Shown here piece by piece: positions 8,138 to 49,750 of a stretch of DNA of 64,000 bases. The notes below the pieces were generated by a model. It was not told the DNA's origin. It saw only the letters and a program-made list of their open reading frames with translations, and made no database searches. Within the stretch, counting starts at the first letter, position 1. Each line of letters starts with the position of its first letter. Origin of the DNA: Flammeovirgaceae bacterium SG7u.111 (GTDB taxonomy: Bacteria > Bacteroidota > Bacteroidia > Cytophagales > Flammeovirgaceae); assembly GCA_034044135.1 (NCBI GenBank), contig CP139021.1, positions 6,153,635 to 6,217,634 of the forward strand, in the 5' to 3' direction. Made by a program: the position numbers and the translations under genes.

Positions 8138-11077
8138 CTAGCTCAACAGCGCCTCAATATCATTTTGACTTAGACTTTTGATGAAGGTGTCTTCGGTAGT
8201 AATCAGGTCTTGGGCGAGCTTCAGTTTGTTTTCTTGCAAAGCCAATATTTTCTCTTCTACAGTGTTACGAGTAATGAATTTATAGGTAAAGACTTTATTT
8301 TCCTGACCTATTCGGTGCGCTCTATCTACTGCCTGCGCTTCAATAGCCGGATTCCACCACGGATCTAAGATAAACACATAATCGGCTGCGGTGAGGTTCA
8401 GGCCAAGCCCACCTGCTTTCAGGGAAATAAGGAAAACACGCATGTCTTCATCCGACTGGAAATTATCTACTTCTTCTTGCCTGTTTTTAGTTGCCCCATC
8501 TAGGTAGGCGTATTTTACTTTCTCCTTGTCCAAGTATTCCTTGAATATGCCCAAATGCTTTACAAACTGGCTAAATATCAGTATTTTATGCTTTTCACTA
8601 ATAGCTGTTTCCAACATAGAAAGCACGCTTTGCATCTTGCCCGATTCACTATCCGACTCCACATTTACCATTTTGGGGTGGTTAGCCAATTGCCTAAGCA
8701 ACGTCAAGCCTTGCAAAAGCATGATTTGCGAGCGGGACACACCCTTCTGCTCTATGTGTTCCAGTATTTTATTTCGATAATATGACTTGGTTTCCTCGTA
8801 TTCTTTCTCTTGCTCAGCTGTCATATCGCAGTACTGAACCTTTTCTATTTTCTCAGGTAAGTCCTTTGCTACCTGCGACTTGTGTCTTCTCAACACAAAA
8901 GGTTTTATCAACGCATGAAGCCGCTGGCTCTTATCTGCATCGTTCTTTTTTTCAATCGGGATTTGATATTCCTGCTTGAAATATTTCATGCCACCCAGCA
9001 GCCCCGGATTCACAAAACTAAGCTGCGACCAAAGATCCAGCGTAGTATTTTCAATAGGCGTACCCGTCAGGATCAAGCGTTTTTTGGATTTCAACCTACT
9101 CACCGATTTGGCAATGATCGAATTCGGATTTTTAATGATCTGCGACTCATCCAAAATCACATAGTTGAAATAGTATTCCTCCAAAATATCCGAATCTATC
9201 CGGGCTATTCCGTAGGAAGTTAAGATGAGATCGTAGTCTTGAAAAATCTCCACATTTTTCTCCCTTGAAGAACCTGTGTAGCAAAATACTTTCAAGTTGG
9301 GGGTAAACTTTTTTGCCTCCATTTCCCAGTTATAAAGCAGGGAAGTGGGCATAATGAGCAAAGTTGCATTTTGTGCCCCTTGGTCTTTTTCATTTTGGAG
9401 CATAGCCAAGGTCTGCACGGTTTTACCCAAACCCATATCGTCGGCCAAACAGCCTCCAAAGTTGTATTGGCTCAAAAACTGTAGCCAATTATAACCCGCT
9501 TTTTGATAAGGGCGCAACACCCCGTTGAAATTGGGTGAAAGATCAAAATCATCTATTTGGGAAAAATCACGCAACTTTTCCAGCTTCCGACTCATAGTCA
9601 CTTGTGCCAGATTGTCCGTTTGGAGGTCTTGTACCAAGGCAACATGATGCTTCTTTAGCATCGAAGTTTCGTTGTCTTCGTCTACAAACTGGAACAAATC
9701 TGAATAGCGGGTGAACCACGATTCAGGAATTACCGCTGTTTCCCCATTGGGCAGGGTAAACTCGTTTTTGTTGGCAACTATCAGTTGCCTTAGTTTTATA
9801 AAAGGAATCTCGTAGTCCCCAAACTTTACAATGGCATTGATATCGAACCAGTCCTTATTTTCCGTGATCTCCACGTTGATAAACGATTGACCCAAAAAGT
9901 ATTTCTTCCCACTGCTTTCTACCTTCTGCTCTATTTGGAAACCGTCCCGTTCTAAGGCTTCGATGTGCTCTGAAATGAAGCTAAATGCCTTCGATTTATC
10001 AATAATAAGCTTTCCATTGTTGATCGGGAGCCCAAGTGATTTCAGCTTTTCCCTCGTTTTCGACTCAAAATCTATATCCCTTTTCACCTTATAAAAAGTG
10101 TAGGAATCTTGACTGCTATCGTGCTTCATTTTCACGCTAGCAGGGTTCGGCTGGTCTGCCGAGAACTTAAAATCCCCGTAGCGAAAAGAAAGCTTAAACA
10201 CCATTTTTGAATTATCCTTCGCACTTCCATTACTTTTTCCGTTCCCTTTACTTTCAAACAAATTGGCAGTATTGCTCTGCAACAGCTCCGTAATAGAAAG
10301 TCGAGGGCGTGCATCAGTCAATAAATTTTTTATGTCGAAGCCTTTTGCCGTTACATTGAACGACTCGATCATTTGGGAAATAAACTTCTTATAATATGTC
10401 CCCTCCATGCTCTTAGGGATGGCAATGAACTTTTTATTAAGAAAAGGCTTGAGCTTTTTCCCATCCAGCTTTTGGTGGAAACTGATCAGCTTTCCTTCCA
10501 GCATCATCCAAGCAGGCTCGTTGCACAAGATGATCGCATTTCTATACCTAAATTCTAATTTTTCGCCTTTGAACTTTATCGTTGGGAAGTAATGGGTATT
10601 CTCGTCATTTCTCCGGAAATGGAATAAAATAGATGCTTTTTCCTTCTCAACATTTATTTTTTTGTAAGTAGGGTCACCGTCGTTGCCCATCTCAAATACC
10701 ATTTTCCCCTCTAGCAACCCAAGTATTTTCGAGCGTTTTCTTTCGAGGTAAGAATCGATAATTTCAATCAGGGCATCATCTTTTTTGGTTTCATACACCG
10801 TTTCAAAAAACTGGGAAGGCAATACTTTTTTCTTATAAAACCTCTTCATTATCTCCTCTTGGCTGCATTCGTCCATCAGTTTGATCAGCTTGAAGTCGGT
10901 TTTGTCCAAGCCTTCGCCAAACTCATGAGCGTTCATCGAAGAAATATTCTGGTACTTGAGTGTCAGGTTATTCAGCTCGTTTACTTCCACCACAAACGAC
11001 TCAAACAAGTAGCCGAGATACTGGTGCTCGAAAAGAGAGTAAACAATTTGAAAAGGACTTTTAGTAGAGACTTTCAT
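8138..11077 (-). CDS. SNF2-family DEAD/DEAH-box ATPase/helicase
   Basis: The frame stays open to 11164, but ATG at 11077 (MKVSTKSPFQIVYSLFEHQY) is the more natural start, giving 979 residues. The C-terminal half is a complete SNF2 motor: Walker A 'DDMGLGKTVQTLA', the DEAH-box variant 'DESQ' in 'YVILDESQIIKNP', 'LTGTPIEN', 'LIFSQFVKHL', 'GGLGLNLTAADYV' and 'DPWWNPAIEAQAVDRAHRIGQ'-type motif VI. The N-terminal ~500 residues are not catalytic and resemble the SNF2-associated region of bacterial Snf2 proteins ('KDWFDINAIVKFGDYEIPFI'). Such proteins translocate on double-stranded DNA and remodel protein-DNA complexes or recycle RNA polymerase. No nuclease or methyltransferase lies beside it, so a defence role is not indicated. 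It is a single-gene unit. Confidence 0.9.
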   Translation of the reverse strand: MKVSTKSPFQIVYSLFEHQYLGYLFESFVVEVNELNNLTLKYQNISSMNAHEFGEGLDKTDFKLIKLMDECSQEEIMKRFYKKKVLPSQFFETVYETKKDDALIEIIDSYLERKRSKILGLLEGKMVFEMGNDGDPTYKKINVEKEKASILFHFRRNDENTHYFPTIKFKGEKLEFRYRNAIILCNEPAWMMLEGKLISFHQKLDGKKLKPFLNKKFIAIPKSMEGTYYKKFISQMIESFNVTAKGFDIKNLLTDARPRLSITELLQSNTANLFESKGNGKSNGSAKDNSKMVFKLSFRYGDFKFSADQPNPASVKMKHDSSQDSYTFYKVKRDIDFESKTREKLKSLGLPINNGKLIIDKSKAFSFISEHIEALERDGFQIEQKVESSGKKYFLGQSFINVEITENKDWFDINAIVKFGDYEIPFIKLRQLIVANKNEFTLPNGETAVIPESWFTRYSDLFQFVDEDNETSMLKKHHVALVQDLQTDNLAQVTMSRKLEKLRDFSQIDDFDLSPNFNGVLRPYQKAGYNWLQFLSQYNFGGCLADDMGLGKTVQTLAMLQNEKDQGAQNATLLIMPTSLLYNWEMEAKKFTPNLKVFCYTGSSREKNVEIFQDYDLILTSYGIARIDSDILEEYYFNYVILDESQIIKNPNSIIAKSVSRLKSKKRLILTGTPIENTTLDLWSQLSFVNPGLLGGMKYFKQEYQIPIEKKNDADKSQRLHALIKPFVLRRHKSQVAKDLPEKIEKVQYCDMTAEQEKEYEETKSYYRNKILEHIEQKGVSRSQIMLLQGLTLLRQLANHPKMVNVESDSESGKMQSVLSMLETAISEKHKILIFSQFVKHLGIFKEYLDKEKVKYAYLDGATKNRQEEVDNFQSDEDMRVFLISLKAGGLGLNLTAADYVFILDPWWNPAIEAQAVDRAHRIGQENKVFTYKFITRNTVEEKILALQENKLKLAQDLITTEDTFIKSLSQNDIEALLS

Positions 11078-11332
11078 TAGGTTAGTGAAGCTTGTTAAAA
11101 AAACGTTTTTTATTCTAAGAGTAGCAAGCTTGCTGTCAACGTGTCCAATTTGAGTTGCCAACAAATCAATTAAGACATGCTAGTAATTCGGTTAAGGCTG
11201 ATTTTACGCTCTTATCCAACTTTCCTGTTCTATTTTTAAGGAACCGCTGAACGAGCACAAAACAGTAAAAAATGCCCCATTAAATTTTGGGCAACTTTCA
11301 AAGGTAATGAAATAATCAGTTATAAAACAATG

Positions 11333-13549: not shown

Positions 13550-15091
13550 TTAAGAGGTTAGGGAGTTATTGTTTTTGTATCTTCTGACTATATTAAACTT
13601 TTTGTGAATAGGGAGAATTGCATTTTTTTTTGAAAAAATCGAATAATATCCTTTTACTTCAAATATATCATTAAAGCTAATCTCTAAACTTAATTCTTCA
13701 CCGTGATTTAATGTTAAATTAGATATTTTGGTTATACCGTTAATTTTAATTTCTTGGATTACCGTTTTTTCATGTTCCAATTCTGCAATTATTATTTTAC
13801 TTATATCATGTTTAATTTTTATTCTGTGATAGTGCATTATATCAGGAATAGTATTGAATATTTCTCCTTGGTATAACAAGTCACCATTATTTTTTTGAAA
13901 AAACAAATGAGGGCACGATCCGCAATTCCAATATCCATCTATCCAATATAAATTGGAAAAGTCAAAGTCGTGAATGTCTTCATATTCTTGATTTTCATCA
14001 ATTTCATAATTAATTTTTAACGGAAAGTAATTCATTCCTAAGTATTCTATTTCTTCATCTTTTGAAGCAGAAGTATGATCTAGTACAATAGATCTATCTC
14101 CTTTTATTTCATTAAACCTTATGAAATCGTCAGCTTTTTCAAGGTCATCAAATTCGGTCAAGAACATTCCCAATGGTATAACCACGCTCTGATTAGGCTC
14201 GATTAGTATTGGTGGAAAATGTATAGCATTTTCACTGTTTATTGATTCGGCATGATAAAGTATTCCATTATATGACTTACAAATTAACTCTTTCAATTTG
14301 ATGTGTGCATTTGAAATATTTGTCACAACTAAAAATTTAAAATATACAGGTTTAAGTAGATAAAGTTCACCAAAAGAACCATTATGATCTCCACACCCTC
14401 CTGCTTCTGTATAAGTTAAAATTTTGGATATTTTTTCTGGTGGCACTTTATTATTTAACAAAAACTGTGTTAACCCATCATTTTTACAATTAATCGCGAC
14501 ATCTCTAACCATAGGCATTCTCTCATGATGATAAAAAGGATATTCATTTTCATCATATTGAAGAACTTCAACATCAGGGTATTTTGATAAGTATGCTTCA
14601 GGTGTACAATCTAGATTATTTTTAATTTCTAAATCTCTGTATTGTTGATTTTTAAATATTTTCCTAAAGTGTTTCAGCGAGTAGTTTTCAAGAAAAATGC
14701 AATTTGTTATAGGTATACCTGATAAATCTTTTTGTGAAATACCTTTTATTATATCAAACTCTTTCGTAATTAGGTATCTAGCGTGAATTCGATTCTCTTT
14801 CTTTTCAGGTATATTATTCTTTTTTACTATTTCAAACCACTCTTTCTTATGTTTTTTTAGCTCATTGATTGAAAACTTTGTACCCTTTGGATGCTGAGCA
14901 TGATAGTGTCCAGCATCAGAGTGGCAGTCAAAGCATAAAGGAATTGCATTTTCAAAAGTATCCTCGCCTCCTTGTTCTTTAGGTAAAATGTGGTGAATTT
15001 CAATTTTAACACCTTTGTACCTATGGCAGACACAACAATGCCTTGCGCTTGATACTAAAACTTCTTCTTTAACCTTTCTTGAGAACCCCAT
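13550..15091 (-). CDS. Orphan HNH endonuclease-like protein with large unknown C-terminal region
   Basis: 513 residues. The N-terminal ~90 form an HNH module: Zn-binding C19-x2-C22 and C53-x2-C56, histidines H33-H34 ('IEIHHILPKEQGG'), N48 ('ENAIPL') and H57 after the second Cys pair. All positions needed for a beta-beta-alpha-metal nuclease are present. The remaining ~400 residues match no family I recognise. They contain 'YTEAGGCGDHNGSFGEL' (about 227-243), a strand-rich part ('YFKFLVVTNISNAHIKL', 'ILIEPNQSVVIPLGMF') reminiscent of an Ig-like sandwich, and a Cys/His cluster CGSCPH (390-395). The gene is AT-rich: bases 13681-13740 hold 16 G/C of 60, against 30 of 60 in dapD at 12901-12960. 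No transposase, methyltransferase or helicase partner adjoins it. Origin by transfer and a DNA-targeting role are inferences. Confidence 0.75.
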   Translation of the reverse strand: MGFSRKVKEEVLVSSARHCCVCHRYKGVKIEIHHILPKEQGGEDTFENAIPLCFDCHSDAGHYHAQHPKGTKFSINELKKHKKEWFEIVKKNNIPEKKENRIHARYLITKEFDIIKGISQKDLSGIPITNCIFLENYSLKHFRKIFKNQQYRDLEIKNNLDCTPEAYLSKYPDVEVLQYDENEYPFYHHERMPMVRDVAINCKNDGLTQFLLNNKVPPEKISKILTYTEAGGCGDHNGSFGELYLLKPVYFKFLVVTNISNAHIKLKELICKSYNGILYHAESINSENAIHFPPILIEPNQSVVIPLGMFLTEFDDLEKADDFIRFNEIKGDRSIVLDHTSASKDEEIEYLGMNYFPLKINYEIDENQEYEDIHDFDFSNLYWIDGYWNCGSCPHLFFQKNNGDLLYQGEIFNTIPDIMHYHRIKIKHDISKIIIAELEHEKTVIQEIKINGITKISNLTLNHGEELSLEISFNDIFEVKGYYSIFSKKNAILPIHKKFNIVRRYKNNNSLTS

Positions 15092-15116: not shown

Positions 15117-15128
15117 ATAACATGTTAT
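15117..15128. promoter_or_regulatory. 12-bp palindrome upstream of the HNH gene
   Basis: ATAACATGTTAT is a perfect palindrome centred 31 bases before the HNH start codon (15091) and inside the divergent spacer with the gene at 15323. Its position fits an operator for a repressor, but AT-rich DNA gives such palindromes by chance. Confidence 0.3.
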
Positions 15129-34047: not shown

Positions 34048-34638
34048 CTACTTTTTACTACCAAAAACATGATTTGGCTGTTTTAAACAAGACTTAGGAG
34101 TAATTCTTCCATTTTTAAAAAAATAAACATTGGAACAAGCAAAGCCTAATGAGGTTCTGTAAAAATCCATATGAAAAAGGTCATTACTTCCCGCAGGAAC
34201 AAAACCAATATCTGCAACCTTATTTGTTTTAGTGAAAATATTATTGAAGTAGTAAAAAGGGTATGAAGATAAAGAATATTGCACAGTCGGGTGTTTTATC
34301 AAAATAATATGGCTTTCAAATTTGACAATCCCTATACCAGCTTCATTTGTATCCCAAAACACTTCATTATCAAAATCTTCCCATTCTGTCCCAATGATAT
34401 TATAGAAAGTTGTATCGCCCTTAACTTTGTAGAAATCAAGTGCCCAAATAGTGTTTTTCTTTCTACCGAATACTTTATTGCTGTAATATGAACACATCTC
34501 ACAAATAGATAGAAAACTACTGTCTTTTATTTCATATGTTGGCAGTGTTAAGTATTGTTTTTCTTTTTTTTGAGAAAAAACAATATTTGAAAAAAACAAA
34601 CAACAAATTATCAAAATGGTGATTGTATTTACCTTCAT
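34048..34638 (-). CDS. Secreted protein of unknown function, 196 residues
   Basis: MKVNTITILIICCLFFSNIV is the start of a signal peptide ending at 'FSQ'. The mature part is rich in Phe, Tyr, Lys and Asn, with four or more cysteines ('SICEMCSYYSNK', 'FACSNVYFFKN', 'PKSCLKQ') that could form disulfides. I recognise no family. The AT-rich coding and lack of operon partners are compatible with recent transfer, but codon evidence from one gene is weak. Confidence 0.6.
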   Translation of the reverse strand: MKVNTITILIICCLFFSNIVFSQKKEKQYLTLPTYEIKDSSFLSICEMCSYYSNKVFGRKKNTIWALDFYKVKGDTTFYNIIGTEWEDFDNEVFWDTNEAGIGIVKFESHIILIKHPTVQYSLSSYPFYYFNNIFTKTNKVADIGFVPAGSNDLFHMDFYRTSLGFACSNVYFFKNGRITPKSCLKQPNHVFGSKK

Positions 34639-46829: not shown

Positions 46830-48107
46830 TTAGAAAGAAAGTTCAAGTTGTAGCCTATATATCAGTGCTTCTTGCTCCGCTTCTTCTTTTTGATAGCTAA
46901 TATCAGTTTGGGCTTTTACCTTATGCCCTATAATATACTTGGAAAGCCCTAGCGTATATTCGGTTATTTCATTACTCCTTATCTCGTCTTGTGGGTCTAT
47001 AAAAGTGTACCTACCTGCTATTTCCCAATTATTCTTGAACAAATACCCAACTTGCATATTAAGCCCTGTTCCTACATAAAACGTCTCCAAGTCTCCATCA
47101 GAAGTTTGGCTTACAATAGGACTCACCTCAGAGGTACTTCTAGTAGTATACTCTCCCATAAAAGAGAATCCATTATATTTGAACATCGCATCTACATACC
47201 ATGAAGAAAGGTCTGTAGGTCTTGATAACAAATCACCTCTTTGCCCCTGAGCTCTAATCGCATTATCGTTATAATCGAAACTCACACCTACTGAAAGCTT
47301 AGGCGTTTTTTCACGAGCTAGGTCCGAGCCAGAATAATCTCCTTTGCCACTGAACTTTCCGAAAGGCAAAAATTCCAACCTTCCTGTGTATCCATACCCT
47401 TCGTGGGAAACACCTTCTTTATTATTTGAGAAATTTTTCCCTTCCCCTCTCGATACCGATAAAATTTCTCTTACCACAAACTCGCCAATATTAAAATGGT
47501 GGCGGAGCTGTAAACCTAAATCACGATCTATATTATATTTCTTATTGAGCAATGATCTATCTACCAATTGTAGATTGGCAGAAGAAATCACCCTTTCTCT
47601 ATTCCCTGGCAATTTAGTTTGCCCTGCCCATAGGGTAAAATTCCCTATAAAATTGTATTTCAATACGGCATCTAATATCTGCCCTCCTAATACATCCGCT
47701 TCAAACTTGAAACCTACTCTAGGGTTAAACAAATAACCATCGGCTTTCACCCTAGCTCTCCTTACATACATATCCCTTGAAAACCCATTGTTTTCCGAGC
47801 CATTCATCAGCCGCTTGGCATCAAATCGAGTTTGCACCCTAGCCCCATATTTTACTACTGATTTCGATTTACCAGCAATAAACTCTATTTGCCTTCCCGT
47901 AACTGAATTCTTGTGCAAAAAACGCTTTTCTACTGATGTAGCCGAATCTGGCTTTAAAGCAAGTGCTGCGGTAGGATGAATAGTTTTTGAGGTAGATAAT
48001 GCTCCTAATAGTGGACTTGAGCTTTCCGTTTGTTGAACAACAGAATCGGTTTGAGCTAAAACTCCAAACGCTGCAAAATTAAAAAATAAGACCGCTAAAA
48101 ACTTCAC
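46830..48107 (-). CDS. OprP/OprO-type (phosphate-selective) porin
   Basis: 425 residues starting with signal peptide MKFLAVLFFNFAAFGVLAQ. After an N-terminal low-complexity part (about 20-75) the barrel begins with 'KYGARVQTRFDAKRLM' and continues with alternating strands typical of the O/P porin family: 'MYVRRARVKADGYLFNPRVG', 'AVLKYNFIGNFTLWAGQTKL', 'GYTGRLEFLPFGKFSGKGDY', ending in the terminal Phe of 'YRLQLELSF'. Family members let phosphate or polyphosphate through the outer membrane. The adjacent Na/Pi carrier supports this substrate. Phosphate regulation is likely, but I see no clear PhoB box. Confidence 0.88.
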   Translation of the reverse strand: MKFLAVLFFNFAAFGVLAQTDSVVQQTESSSPLLGALSTSKTIHPTAALALKPDSATSVEKRFLHKNSVTGRQIEFIAGKSKSVVKYGARVQTRFDAKRLMNGSENNGFSRDMYVRRARVKADGYLFNPRVGFKFEADVLGGQILDAVLKYNFIGNFTLWAGQTKLPGNRERVISSANLQLVDRSLLNKKYNIDRDLGLQLRHHFNIGEFVVREILSVSRGEGKNFSNNKEGVSHEGYGYTGRLEFLPFGKFSGKGDYSGSDLAREKTPKLSVGVSFDYNDNAIRAQGQRGDLLSRPTDLSSWYVDAMFKYNGFSFMGEYTTRSTSEVSPIVSQTSDGDLETFYVGTGLNMQVGYLFKNNWEIAGRYTFIDPQDEIRSNEITEYTLGLSKYIIGHKVKAQTDISYQKEEAEQEALIYRLQLELSF

Positions 48108-48847
48108 TATATTGTAAACTGAATGTTTAATTATACCATACTTACCATTAAGTAATGGTGCAATGATCAGTTTTAAAATTCAACTAAAATTGAATATATA
48201 TTGAACCTATTGTTAAGTATTTGAAACACCAGCAATATTTATCTACAACAAAAAACTAAATAAACAAAAATAAAAATCTAAAATAAAATTAATATATAAA
48301 ATATTATTCTTAAAAAATTATAATAAAAGAATTTTAAATAACCTTAAGTATAAAAAACAAAATAATCAATAAAAATCAAATTCTTTGTTATGTAACATGT
48401 TTATTCTAAAAAGCAACTATTAAACATCTTAATTTTATGTTAACTAATTAATCACAAAGATTCTATTATTAATAAGATTATTGATAGTTAGTATCTATAA
48501 AATAACATCGCTAAGAATTATCAACAAAATTCGATATTACACTAAAACAGTTTAAAATGATCTTAAAGTCATTTTTTGGAAATTTCATAAACACTAAAAA
48601 AAACATTTGACAATTTTATTTATTAAATTAATTGTACTTTTCAGTGAATAAATACAAAATCCTATATTAAATTTTAACATTAAATTTTATTTAGGTTAAT
48701 ATTAAAACATATTAATTCATATTAAATTAACTAACCAAACACATAACATGTAAAAAAACACGCCACTAATGGCTGTTAACTTCGGTTTAAAACAAAAAAA
48801 ACCAGAACAAAGATGTTCTGGCTTATAAATTACGCTGGGGTAATCAG
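48108..48847. other. 740-base very AT-rich spacer
   Basis: No gene is visible on either strand. Bases 48241-48360 contain 12 G/C of 120. Two near-consensus DnaA boxes occur, TTATCTACA (48239-48247) and TTATCAACA (48518-48526), each one mismatch from TTATCCACA. The end near 48847 holds the terminator of the aldo/keto reductase gene, and the end near 48108 must hold the porin promoter. Confidence 0.55.
48793..48821 (-). terminator. Terminator of the aldo/keto reductase gene
   Basis: CCAGAACA (48802-48809) pairs with TGTTCTGG (48814-48821); the A-run before it gives a minus-strand U-run. Confidence 0.8.
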
Positions 48848-49750
48848 TTAAGGCATTGGAAAACCTTGTGCTGCTACCAATATTTTATACCACATTTCTC
48901 TGGTCAACTCTAATTTTTCTGCCTCTATCGCCACTCTCAACCTTTCCAATTTTCCCGAACCTACTATGGGCATTATCTTAGCCGGGTGCATAAGTAGCCA
49001 AGCATAAGCTACTTCATCTATACCTGTAGCCTCTACTTGTTTTGCCACTTGTTCAAGCTGGGCTTTCACCCTTATCCCCTTCGCATCTTTAGGTTTAAAA
49101 ATCTGCCCTCCTGCTAGCGGTGACCAAGCCATGGGCTTAATTCCTTCTTTAAGAAAAAACTCAATGTTTTCATTTTGGAAATGTTCCACGCAATAAGGTG
49201 ATATCTCGACCTGGTTGGTAACTAATTTTCCAGAAAAATGGCATGCAAGCATCTCGTACTGCATAGGAGTGAAATTAGACACACCAAAGTTGAGCACCTT
49301 ACCCGATTGCGATAGGTCATCGAAGGCCTTTGCAACTTCAGCAGGATCCATCAATGGGTCTGGTCGGTGAATCAATAATAAGTCGATCCGGTCTGTCTTG
49401 AGCTTTTTGAGGGATTCTTCGGCACTACCTATTATATGAGCGTAGCTTGTATCATAATGATTCATTTCTCGCTTAGGATATTTCCCTGAAGTAAGCTTAA
49501 TACCACACTTAGTAATCACCTCTAGCTTGTCCCTAAGGCTAGGATCGTGGCTAAGGGCATCACCAAACAAATTCTCACATTCATAGTCCCCATATATGTC
49601 AGCCAAGTCCATAGAGCTTACGCCCATTTCCAAAGCCTGATTGATATAAGTAGATAAATCTTTGGGAGATATCCCCCAGTCTGTCACGCGCCATAAACCT
49701 AGCACAATGCGAGAAAGATGTAAGTTTTCGGATAAGGTTATTTTCTCCAT
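48848..49750 (-). CDS. Aldo/keto reductase
   Basis: The frame opens at 49834; ATG 49750 (MEKITLSENLHLSRIVLGLW) gives the family N-terminus, 300 residues. It is a TIM barrel with the catalytic residues in place: D and Y in 'MDLADIYGDYECENLFGDAL', K in 'VITKCGIKL', H in 'DLLLIHRPDPLMDPAEV'. 'VLNFGVSNFTPMQYEML' and 'AWSPLAGGQIF' bind NAD(P)H with 'PIVGSGKLERLRVAIEA'. It resembles the YdhF branch of AKRs. The substrate is unknown. Confidence 0.92.
   Translation of the reverse strand: MEKITLSENLHLSRIVLGLWRVTDWGISPKDLSTYINQALEMGVSSMDLADIYGDYECENLFGDALSHDPSLRDKLEVITKCGIKLTSGKYPKREMNHYDTSYAHIIGSAEESLKKLKTDRIDLLLIHRPDPLMDPAEVAKAFDDLSQSGKVLNFGVSNFTPMQYEMLACHFSGKLVTNQVEISPYCVEHFQNENIEFFLKEGIKPMAWSPLAGGQIFKPKDAKGIRVKAQLEQVAKQVEATGIDEVAYAWLLMHPAKIMPIVGSGKLERLRVAIEAEKLELTREMWYKILVAAQGFPMP

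Follow-up and report, generated by a model that had tools for sequence, protein, structure and literature searches.

A rare HNH protein with a conserved C-terminal region of no matched family, a candidate single-gene defence protein of a Flammeovirgaceae bacterium

In the genome of Flammeovirgaceae bacterium SG7u.111, an AT-rich gene encodes an HNH module followed by a long C-terminal region, and the question raised by this locus is what such a protein might do for the cell that carries it. An initial annotation, made from the DNA letters, regarded it as a candidate for an undescribed single-gene defence or mobile-DNA function. The gene was analysed here within a stretch of 64,000 nucleotides of contig CP139021.1 (positions 6,153,635 to 6,217,634, forward strand; hereafter the window), in which it forms an intact open reading frame with an ATG start (Table 1).

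Table 1. Features of the HNH gene and its upstream gap, in window coordinates
Feature	Position	Strand	Basis or remark
Gene for HNH module plus unmatched region	13550..15091	-	Intact, 513 aa; full-length relatives
HNH module, aa 1-95	14807..15091	-	Pfam PF01844; Cys pairs C19/C22 and C53/C56; H34, N48, H57
Conserved C-terminal part (aa 96-513), the proposed recognition or sensor region	13553..14806	-	Three full-length relatives and a fragment
Predicted beta domain, aa 389-483, eight strands	13643..13927	-	AlphaFold2 model mf692f3cd915e
Invariant CPHL motif, aa 393-396	13904..13915	-	5/5 sequences
Perfect 12-bp palindrome ATAACATGTTAT	15117..15128	.	26-37 bp upstream of the start codon

The N-terminal module matched the Pfam HNH family over residues 19-60 (E 2e-8, 34.7 bits, cut-off 21.4), and H34, N48, H57 and both cysteine pairs were invariant in all eight aligned HNH modules, which bears out the intact HNH module with two Cys pairs of the initial annotation; H33 was not invariant. 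On these sequence features, the protein can be assigned to the HNH endonuclease superfamily (PF01844). The best sequence match of the module in the PDB was McrA (6ghc, E 3.2e-4), whose matched HNH occupies residues 235-268 of the 287-residue chain, i.e., a place at the C-terminal end. The PADLOC model mREase_IV matched the module weakly (16.4-24.7 bits), and the scores with the IscB model (33.4-44.4 bits) were far under its cut-off of 175. In addition, PADLOC gave short HNH-region matches only (11.5-25.9 bits) for the window protein and its three full-length relatives, and none of the four proteins had a full-length match to any PADLOC model.

The C-terminal part of about 418 residues had no accepted match in Pfam, NCBIfam or PADLOC (E <= 1), and all 25 listed of the 30 PHROGs matches were located at the HNH end, none being on the C-terminus; the large region of no known architecture that had been described at first is thus still without an accepted match in these four libraries. 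DUF5578 matched this part below threshold (E 0.089, 12.7 bits, cut-off 25.7). A known housekeeping domain at this end, which had been named as speaking against a defence or mobile-DNA role, was looked for, and no such match appeared in the libraries searched.

Whole-genome searches recovered three full-length relatives, L016 in genome G626, L019 in G854 and L022 in G1108, from genomes that we take to belong to the phylum Bacteroidota. The window protein shares 36% identity with L019, 29% with L016 (over 492 aa) and 26% with L022, while its C-terminal region alone matches the three at 24-29% identity (E 6e-36 to 4e-28). A scan of a species-genome collection added one further relative, the 171-codon fragment L009, with a C-terminal match at 59%. 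At L009:800-1518, the C-terminal core follows unrelated coding-like sequence and ends ahead of two genes that we take to be IS21-like; this copy, which comes from a metagenome assembly, is broken or chimeric. The weaker HNH matches L003-L008 and L013, the last being the same place as L005, were excluded from the full-length counts. L011, which came from the C-terminal search, was dropped as spurious, as it is presumably an RND pump (this label and a HIRAN label were assigned by eye), and L014, where a short stretch of a viral contig matches the HNH amid replication genes, falls outside this family.

Across the relatives and the fragment, the motifs W..G.CPHL and II.ELE.E are invariant, with W388, G391, C393-P394-H395-L396, E437, L438, E439 and E441 conserved in 5/5 rows (fragment included). 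The Cys/His cluster CGSCPH that the initial annotation had pointed to does not stand as a cluster, since C390 varies, and it is the stretch from C393 to L396 that is kept in every sequence. Between the C-termini of L016 and L022, identity at codon positions 1, 2 and 3 is 0.63, 0.73 and 0.29, so that third positions diverge most. The alignments indicate that the C-terminal region is conserved as a family, and the codon patterns point to purifying selection. Among the literature matches listed, the portions of the sources at hand describe no HNH module joined to this C-terminal family.

Structure prediction was attempted for the same region. With a two-sequence input, AlphaFold2 modelled the whole C-terminus at a mean pLDDT of 30.8, and this model was set aside. 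For residues 280-490 (211 residues), the mean pLDDT was 47.0 in the best model and 27-33 in the other four; in the best of the five models only, eight strands are predicted between residues 395 and 483, with 10-residue blocks at pLDDT 50-85 over residues 390-479, and a ninth strand at residues 373-377 has low confidence. Foldseek found nothing at E <= 0.001 in the PDB or in viral models, and a profile of the C-terminus matched no PDB chain below E 0.44. The best VIA-align match (Z 6.9) was to the C-terminal, receptor-binding-type domains of two clostridial proteins; this value lies within the noise stated for the tool, and therefore no function was drawn from it. The AlphaFold and Foldseek check that had been suggested for this region accordingly ended in low-confidence models and no fold match above noise.

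The McrA match brings in modification-dependent (type IV) restriction, a special case of a defence role with a DNA trigger, in which the C-terminus would read a modified base and the HNH module would cut nearby. Both the McrA and the weak mREase_IV matches agree with this, and a single-gene design is compatible with it. According to the parts of the literature available, TagI (SRA-HNH) and VcaM4I (EVE-HNH) are modification-dependent enzymes with domain orders other than that of the window protein, and an E. coli HNH gene beside a restriction-modification system, whose protein was missed by prediction tools, restricted phage and plasmids (PMC12409345, as far as the portion seen reports). Like TagI, VcaM4I and McrA, the window protein would unite an HNH cutter and a proposed recognition domain in a single polypeptide. 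However, its C-terminus matches none of their recognition domains: by sequence profiles, Pfam, NCBIfam and PADLOC gave no SRA, EVE, PUA or winged-helix match there. The McrA and mREase_IV matches, moreover, span the HNH alone, and the HNH of McrA 6ghc is C-terminal rather than N-terminal. Type IV restriction is therefore regarded here as an unlikely form of the defence role.

The HNH module has a history of its own. At 63%, the window module is about as close to that of L017, a protein with an unrelated C-terminus of 250 aa, as to that of L019 (61%), which has the same C-terminus. In a seven-row tree, the window protein, L017, L019, L016 and L022 form one clade with support 100/99, and L017 showed neither BLAST similarity to the window-type C-terminus at E 0.05 nor a profile relation (probability 0.2%). 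One HNH clade thus bears two unrelated C-termini, and therefore the module has changed partners. A single origin of the common C-terminus on the HNH tree occurred in 5% of 200 bootstrap trees and was not rejected (p-AU 0.158), so no direction was assigned to the swap; in a ten-row tree with long branches, L017 was placed weakly. More widely, L017, L015, L025 and L026 resemble the window protein in an N-terminal HNH that is 37-63% identical to its module, but differ in C-termini of 215-288 aa without BLAST match to the window type at E 0.05; profile comparison of the C-termini of L017 and L026 with the window type likewise found no relation. A 42-aa match (E 0.003) links the C-termini of L017 and L025. 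L060 and L061 are weaker HNH proteins with other C-termini, and at L060:452-1737 (G1185) two neighbouring HNH-like open reading frames share a strand; on visual inspection, the HNH histidines are missing from the downstream frame.

The exchange of C-termini within one HNH clade would suit interchangeable sensors, and hence an infection-triggered effector that degrades cell and phage DNA upon a protein or nucleotide ligand, which is also a special case of the defence role. Such an effector is Cap5 of CBASS, reported in the part of its description available to have an N-terminal HNH and a C-terminal sensor that activates the nuclease (PMC8568899); the window protein has the same order, with a larger C-terminal part behind its N-terminal HNH. 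The family differs from Cap5 in that no SAVED match was found by sequence profiles (Pfam for the window protein, L016, L019 and L022, NCBIfam for the window protein; a remote fold is possible) and no cyclase was present in the subset of neighbouring open reading frames scanned. A Cap5-like triggered effector is thus improbable, too, as the specific form that defence would take.

The family is rare and sporadic in the genome draws, which overlap, so that their counts are not to be summed. Among 390 genomes of the order to which the window genome belongs, a full-length copy was present in two, the window genome and G854, and the HNH alone in G014. In the order of G626, whose draw does not hold the window genome, 2/45 genomes carried a full-length copy. 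The class draw, with the HNH as query (E <= 1e-12), gave 2/395 (the window genome and G626), and the phylum draw gave one full-length copy in 395, that of the window genome itself, plus two more genomes with the HNH only; the family of G854 had one full-length copy in 225 genomes, with the HNH only in two more. With the C-terminal protein alone as the query, 2/395 genomes were matched, one of them through the spurious pump. Leaving out the window genome, these counts become 1/389 for its order, 2/45 for the order of G626, 1/394 for the class and 0/394 for the phylum. Among 72,556 plasmid records and 50,697 phage records, none matched the C-terminus of the window protein, and that of L016 likewise went unmatched in the plasmids. 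A search with the full L022 protein gave three plasmids, all through the HNH end alone, and no phage, and no relative of the C-terminus emerged from pattern-seeded scans of viral contigs either.

The window copy has a GC content of 29.7% and a GC3 of 22.8%, the latter the lowest and the former the second-lowest among the window's 49 open reading frames with 150 aa or more; 46.2% GC was obtained for the flanking gene, which we take to be dapD, and these recomputed values replace the sampled 27% and 50% given earlier. Two further AT-rich places were noted in the window: an open reading frame of 196 aa at 34048-34638 (GC 29.6%) without PADLOC match, and the most AT-rich kilobase (48001-49000, 25.1% GC), which lies mostly between two open reading frames. 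Low GC is not general in the family: gene and locus GC are 31.7% and 39.5% in G854, 51.3% and 60.0% in G626, and 63.0% and 60.6% in G1108. Composition therefore backs a recent arrival only unevenly, the G1108 copy being contrary.

On its two sides, the gene is flanked by dapD and by a 200-aa open reading frame without accepted family match, followed by a GNAT/YoaP-like gene, and the absence of partner genes that had been noted at first holds for this copy as far as was looked. No accepted defence or mobile neighbour was found. An SNF2-type helicase three genes away (8138-11164) matched DpdE with 473.9 bits at model positions 675-1170 of 1176, and also the ZorD model, but both matches are limited to helicase parts, and it was not counted as a defence neighbour. 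The palindrome upstream of the gene, to which the initial annotation had drawn attention, does exist, yet a perfect 12-bp palindrome turns up in 11.8% of the sequences obtained by mononucleotide shuffling of the 231-bp gap (probability 0.118), and the window holds 21 such palindromes; at this chance-level frequency it carries no evidential weight and was discarded as an operator or mobile end. Direct repeats of at least 8 bp between the two flanks were not found. In none of the 16 family relatives with a matched dapD does the gene adjoin it, and in an empty-site comparison of the 16 loci (about 1.5 kb of flank) only dapD was matched among the genes of the window. Comparisons of the window, G626 and G1108 loci revealed no island boundaries.

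Since the window copy sits amid what appear to be housekeeping genes, it might be an ordinary accessory protein, for example of DNA repair or competence, that carries an HNH by chance. The very sparse occurrence, the absence beside dapD in 16/16 relatives and the different neighbours of each copy read argue against such a protein, which is considered quite unlikely.

The three full-length relatives share no common neighbourhood. In G1108, the copy is divergent from a 1224-aa match of the defence sirtuin Dsr1, with 408 bp between the two open reading frames; the PADLOC match covers model positions 1-1267 of 1275 at 1072.6 bits. In G626, the copy begins 138 bp past a gene termed u460 (L018:6980-8359), the gene upstream of which scored 43.5 bits with the PADLOC candidate family PDC-M03B. 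Homologues of u460 occur in 5/72,556 plasmid records, of which two (L062 and L063) were examined: in one, the homologue has type III Mod/Res on one side, separated from it by a DUF2384 gene, and GajA/GajB (Gabija) on the opposite side, while in the second record it adjoins an OLD-like ATPase. The u460 family is thus a second candidate defence gene. It is unannotated, has no PADLOC match and carries an RN...HG motif. At L015:8001-10048, on Candidatus Manganitrophus plasmid CP114559, about 30 bp separate an HNH gene with another C-terminus from a downstream gene that is unmatched and likewise carries RN...HG; three plasmid records under that organism name contain the HNH gene, and one of them was examined. 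The motif in both neighbours presumably resembles that of HEPN proteins, and the two neighbours are not alike.

As a control, open reading frames near a gene that we take to be ygiD-like were scanned in G1108 and G1106 (10 of the 18 listed), and three of the ten matched PADLOC at E <= 1e-10: mad3 twice (101 and 89 bits) and DndA/SspA once (393 bits). Because ordinary genes also match PADLOC, a nearby match is weak evidence unless it is as strong and specific as that of Dsr1, and since the control was not clean, the argument from context leans mainly on Dsr1 and the u460 islands and is uncalibrated. A conserved non-defence neighbourhood, the other finding that had been named as contrary to a defence role, was looked for and was not seen among the three relatives, one of them at a contig end. 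When ten genes of the G626 locus were sought in relatives, only the ygiD-like gene was matched, in three of them, and a gene near the G1108 copy that is presumably PilB-like had no match at E <= 1e-80 in eight relatives.

The copy in G854 has a different setting. The stretch L024:1-2937 holds a tyrosine recombinase, the HNH gene on the same strand and an attC-like hairpin with the core GTTGTAA. The recombinase, upstream of the copy, matched Phage_integrase with 140.5 bits; its best NCBIfam model was NF040815, which covers tyrosine recombinases and integron integrases in general (220.6 bits against a cut-off of 220), and it scored 209.7 bits with the integron integrase model TIGR02249, below the cut-off of 265. 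The 8-base core CGTTGTAA has two copies on the gene strand in 9 kb of G854 and none on the other strand, one being 22 bp ahead of the ATG and the other 3' of the gene. In the 3' flank, the hairpin has outer arms TTACAAC and GTTGTAA and then a second long stem, and the stop codon lies inside this site, directly after the first arm. Folded as single-stranded DNA, the site has z -4.64, with 0/200 shuffles as good, and 0/200 shuffles were as good in a custom attC-like scan as well; the contig stops about 20 bp beyond the point at which the 3' core site begins. In the 3' flank of the window copy, no attC-like site was found (fold z 0.24, 112/200 shuffles as good; custom scan, 62/200), and at the six other HNH genes, among them the copies in G626 and G1108, the results of the scan did not rise above those of the shuffles.

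The G854 copy thus has an attC-like site at its 3' end and an identical core at both ends, as a gene cassette would. The consensus of integron core sites is GTTRRRY, from which the core GTTGTAA departs, and the copy is therefore termed integron-cassette-like; the locus is possibly an integron-like system with a non-canonical integrase. Chromosomal integrons have been described as reservoirs of antiphage cassettes (PMC12409362, in the portion of that paper available). In its core site, open reading frame and attC-like hairpin, the G854 relative resembles a first cassette of such an array; it differs in that the recombinase is under the integron-integrase cut-off and the core is off the consensus, and the window, G626 and G1108 copies differ further in showing no attC-like site.

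HNH modules are common in selfish and mobile elements, and the cassette-like unit could be read as carrying an HNH of the free-standing homing type that has a specificity region and brings the host no advantage, to which the scores of the module with the IscB model would also lend themselves, though they fall far below the cut-off. At the copies read, however, no interrupted gene was found, and the C-terminus was without match in the plasmid and phage records and in the pattern-seeded scans of viral contigs mentioned above. A selfish nuclease is accordingly held to be a decidedly unlikely explanation.

Considering these observations together, the favoured reading, with a probability of roughly one half, is that this rare gene moves horizontally and provides, on its own, a defence protein directed at DNA, in which the N-terminal HNH module would act as the effector and the C-terminal region as a sensor of a type that, judging from sequence comparison, has not been described. 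It may be an undescribed one-gene defence because three intact relatives adjoin defence-linked or gene-capture genes. The single-gene defence or mobile-DNA function first suggested therefore gains indirect support from the relatives beside Dsr1 and u460 or in a cassette-like unit with a recombinase; the window copy has no accepted defence neighbour. We infer a DNase activity, a sensor role, a trigger and defence itself along the following lines. The HNH module would be the effector, a metal-dependent DNase that is held off or untargeted in the healthy cell. Residues 96-513, whose final third, around the invariant motifs CPHL and ELExE, is predicted to be rich in beta strands, would be the recognition part, which might respond to some cue from an invader (for example, a phage protein, a small ligand or modified DNA). 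Recognition of the cue would then bring or switch on the HNH module, potentially leading to DNA cutting.

More tentatively, and with rather less likelihood than the defence role itself, the gene might belong to a modular, mobile one-gene defence family, in which one HNH effector clade is combined with interchangeable C-terminal sensors, the sensor of 418 residues being of no described kind, and which passes from one chromosome of the phylum to another, in part within cassette-like units that a non-canonical tyrosine recombinase moves by means of attC-like sites. An HNH effector joined to a sensor is a known design of immunity, while the C-terminal region of this family matches no family library searched. 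If these proposals are true, the region would be a compact new sensor, and the cassette-like vehicle would help to account for the arrival of single defence genes, outside any island, in unrelated chromosomes.
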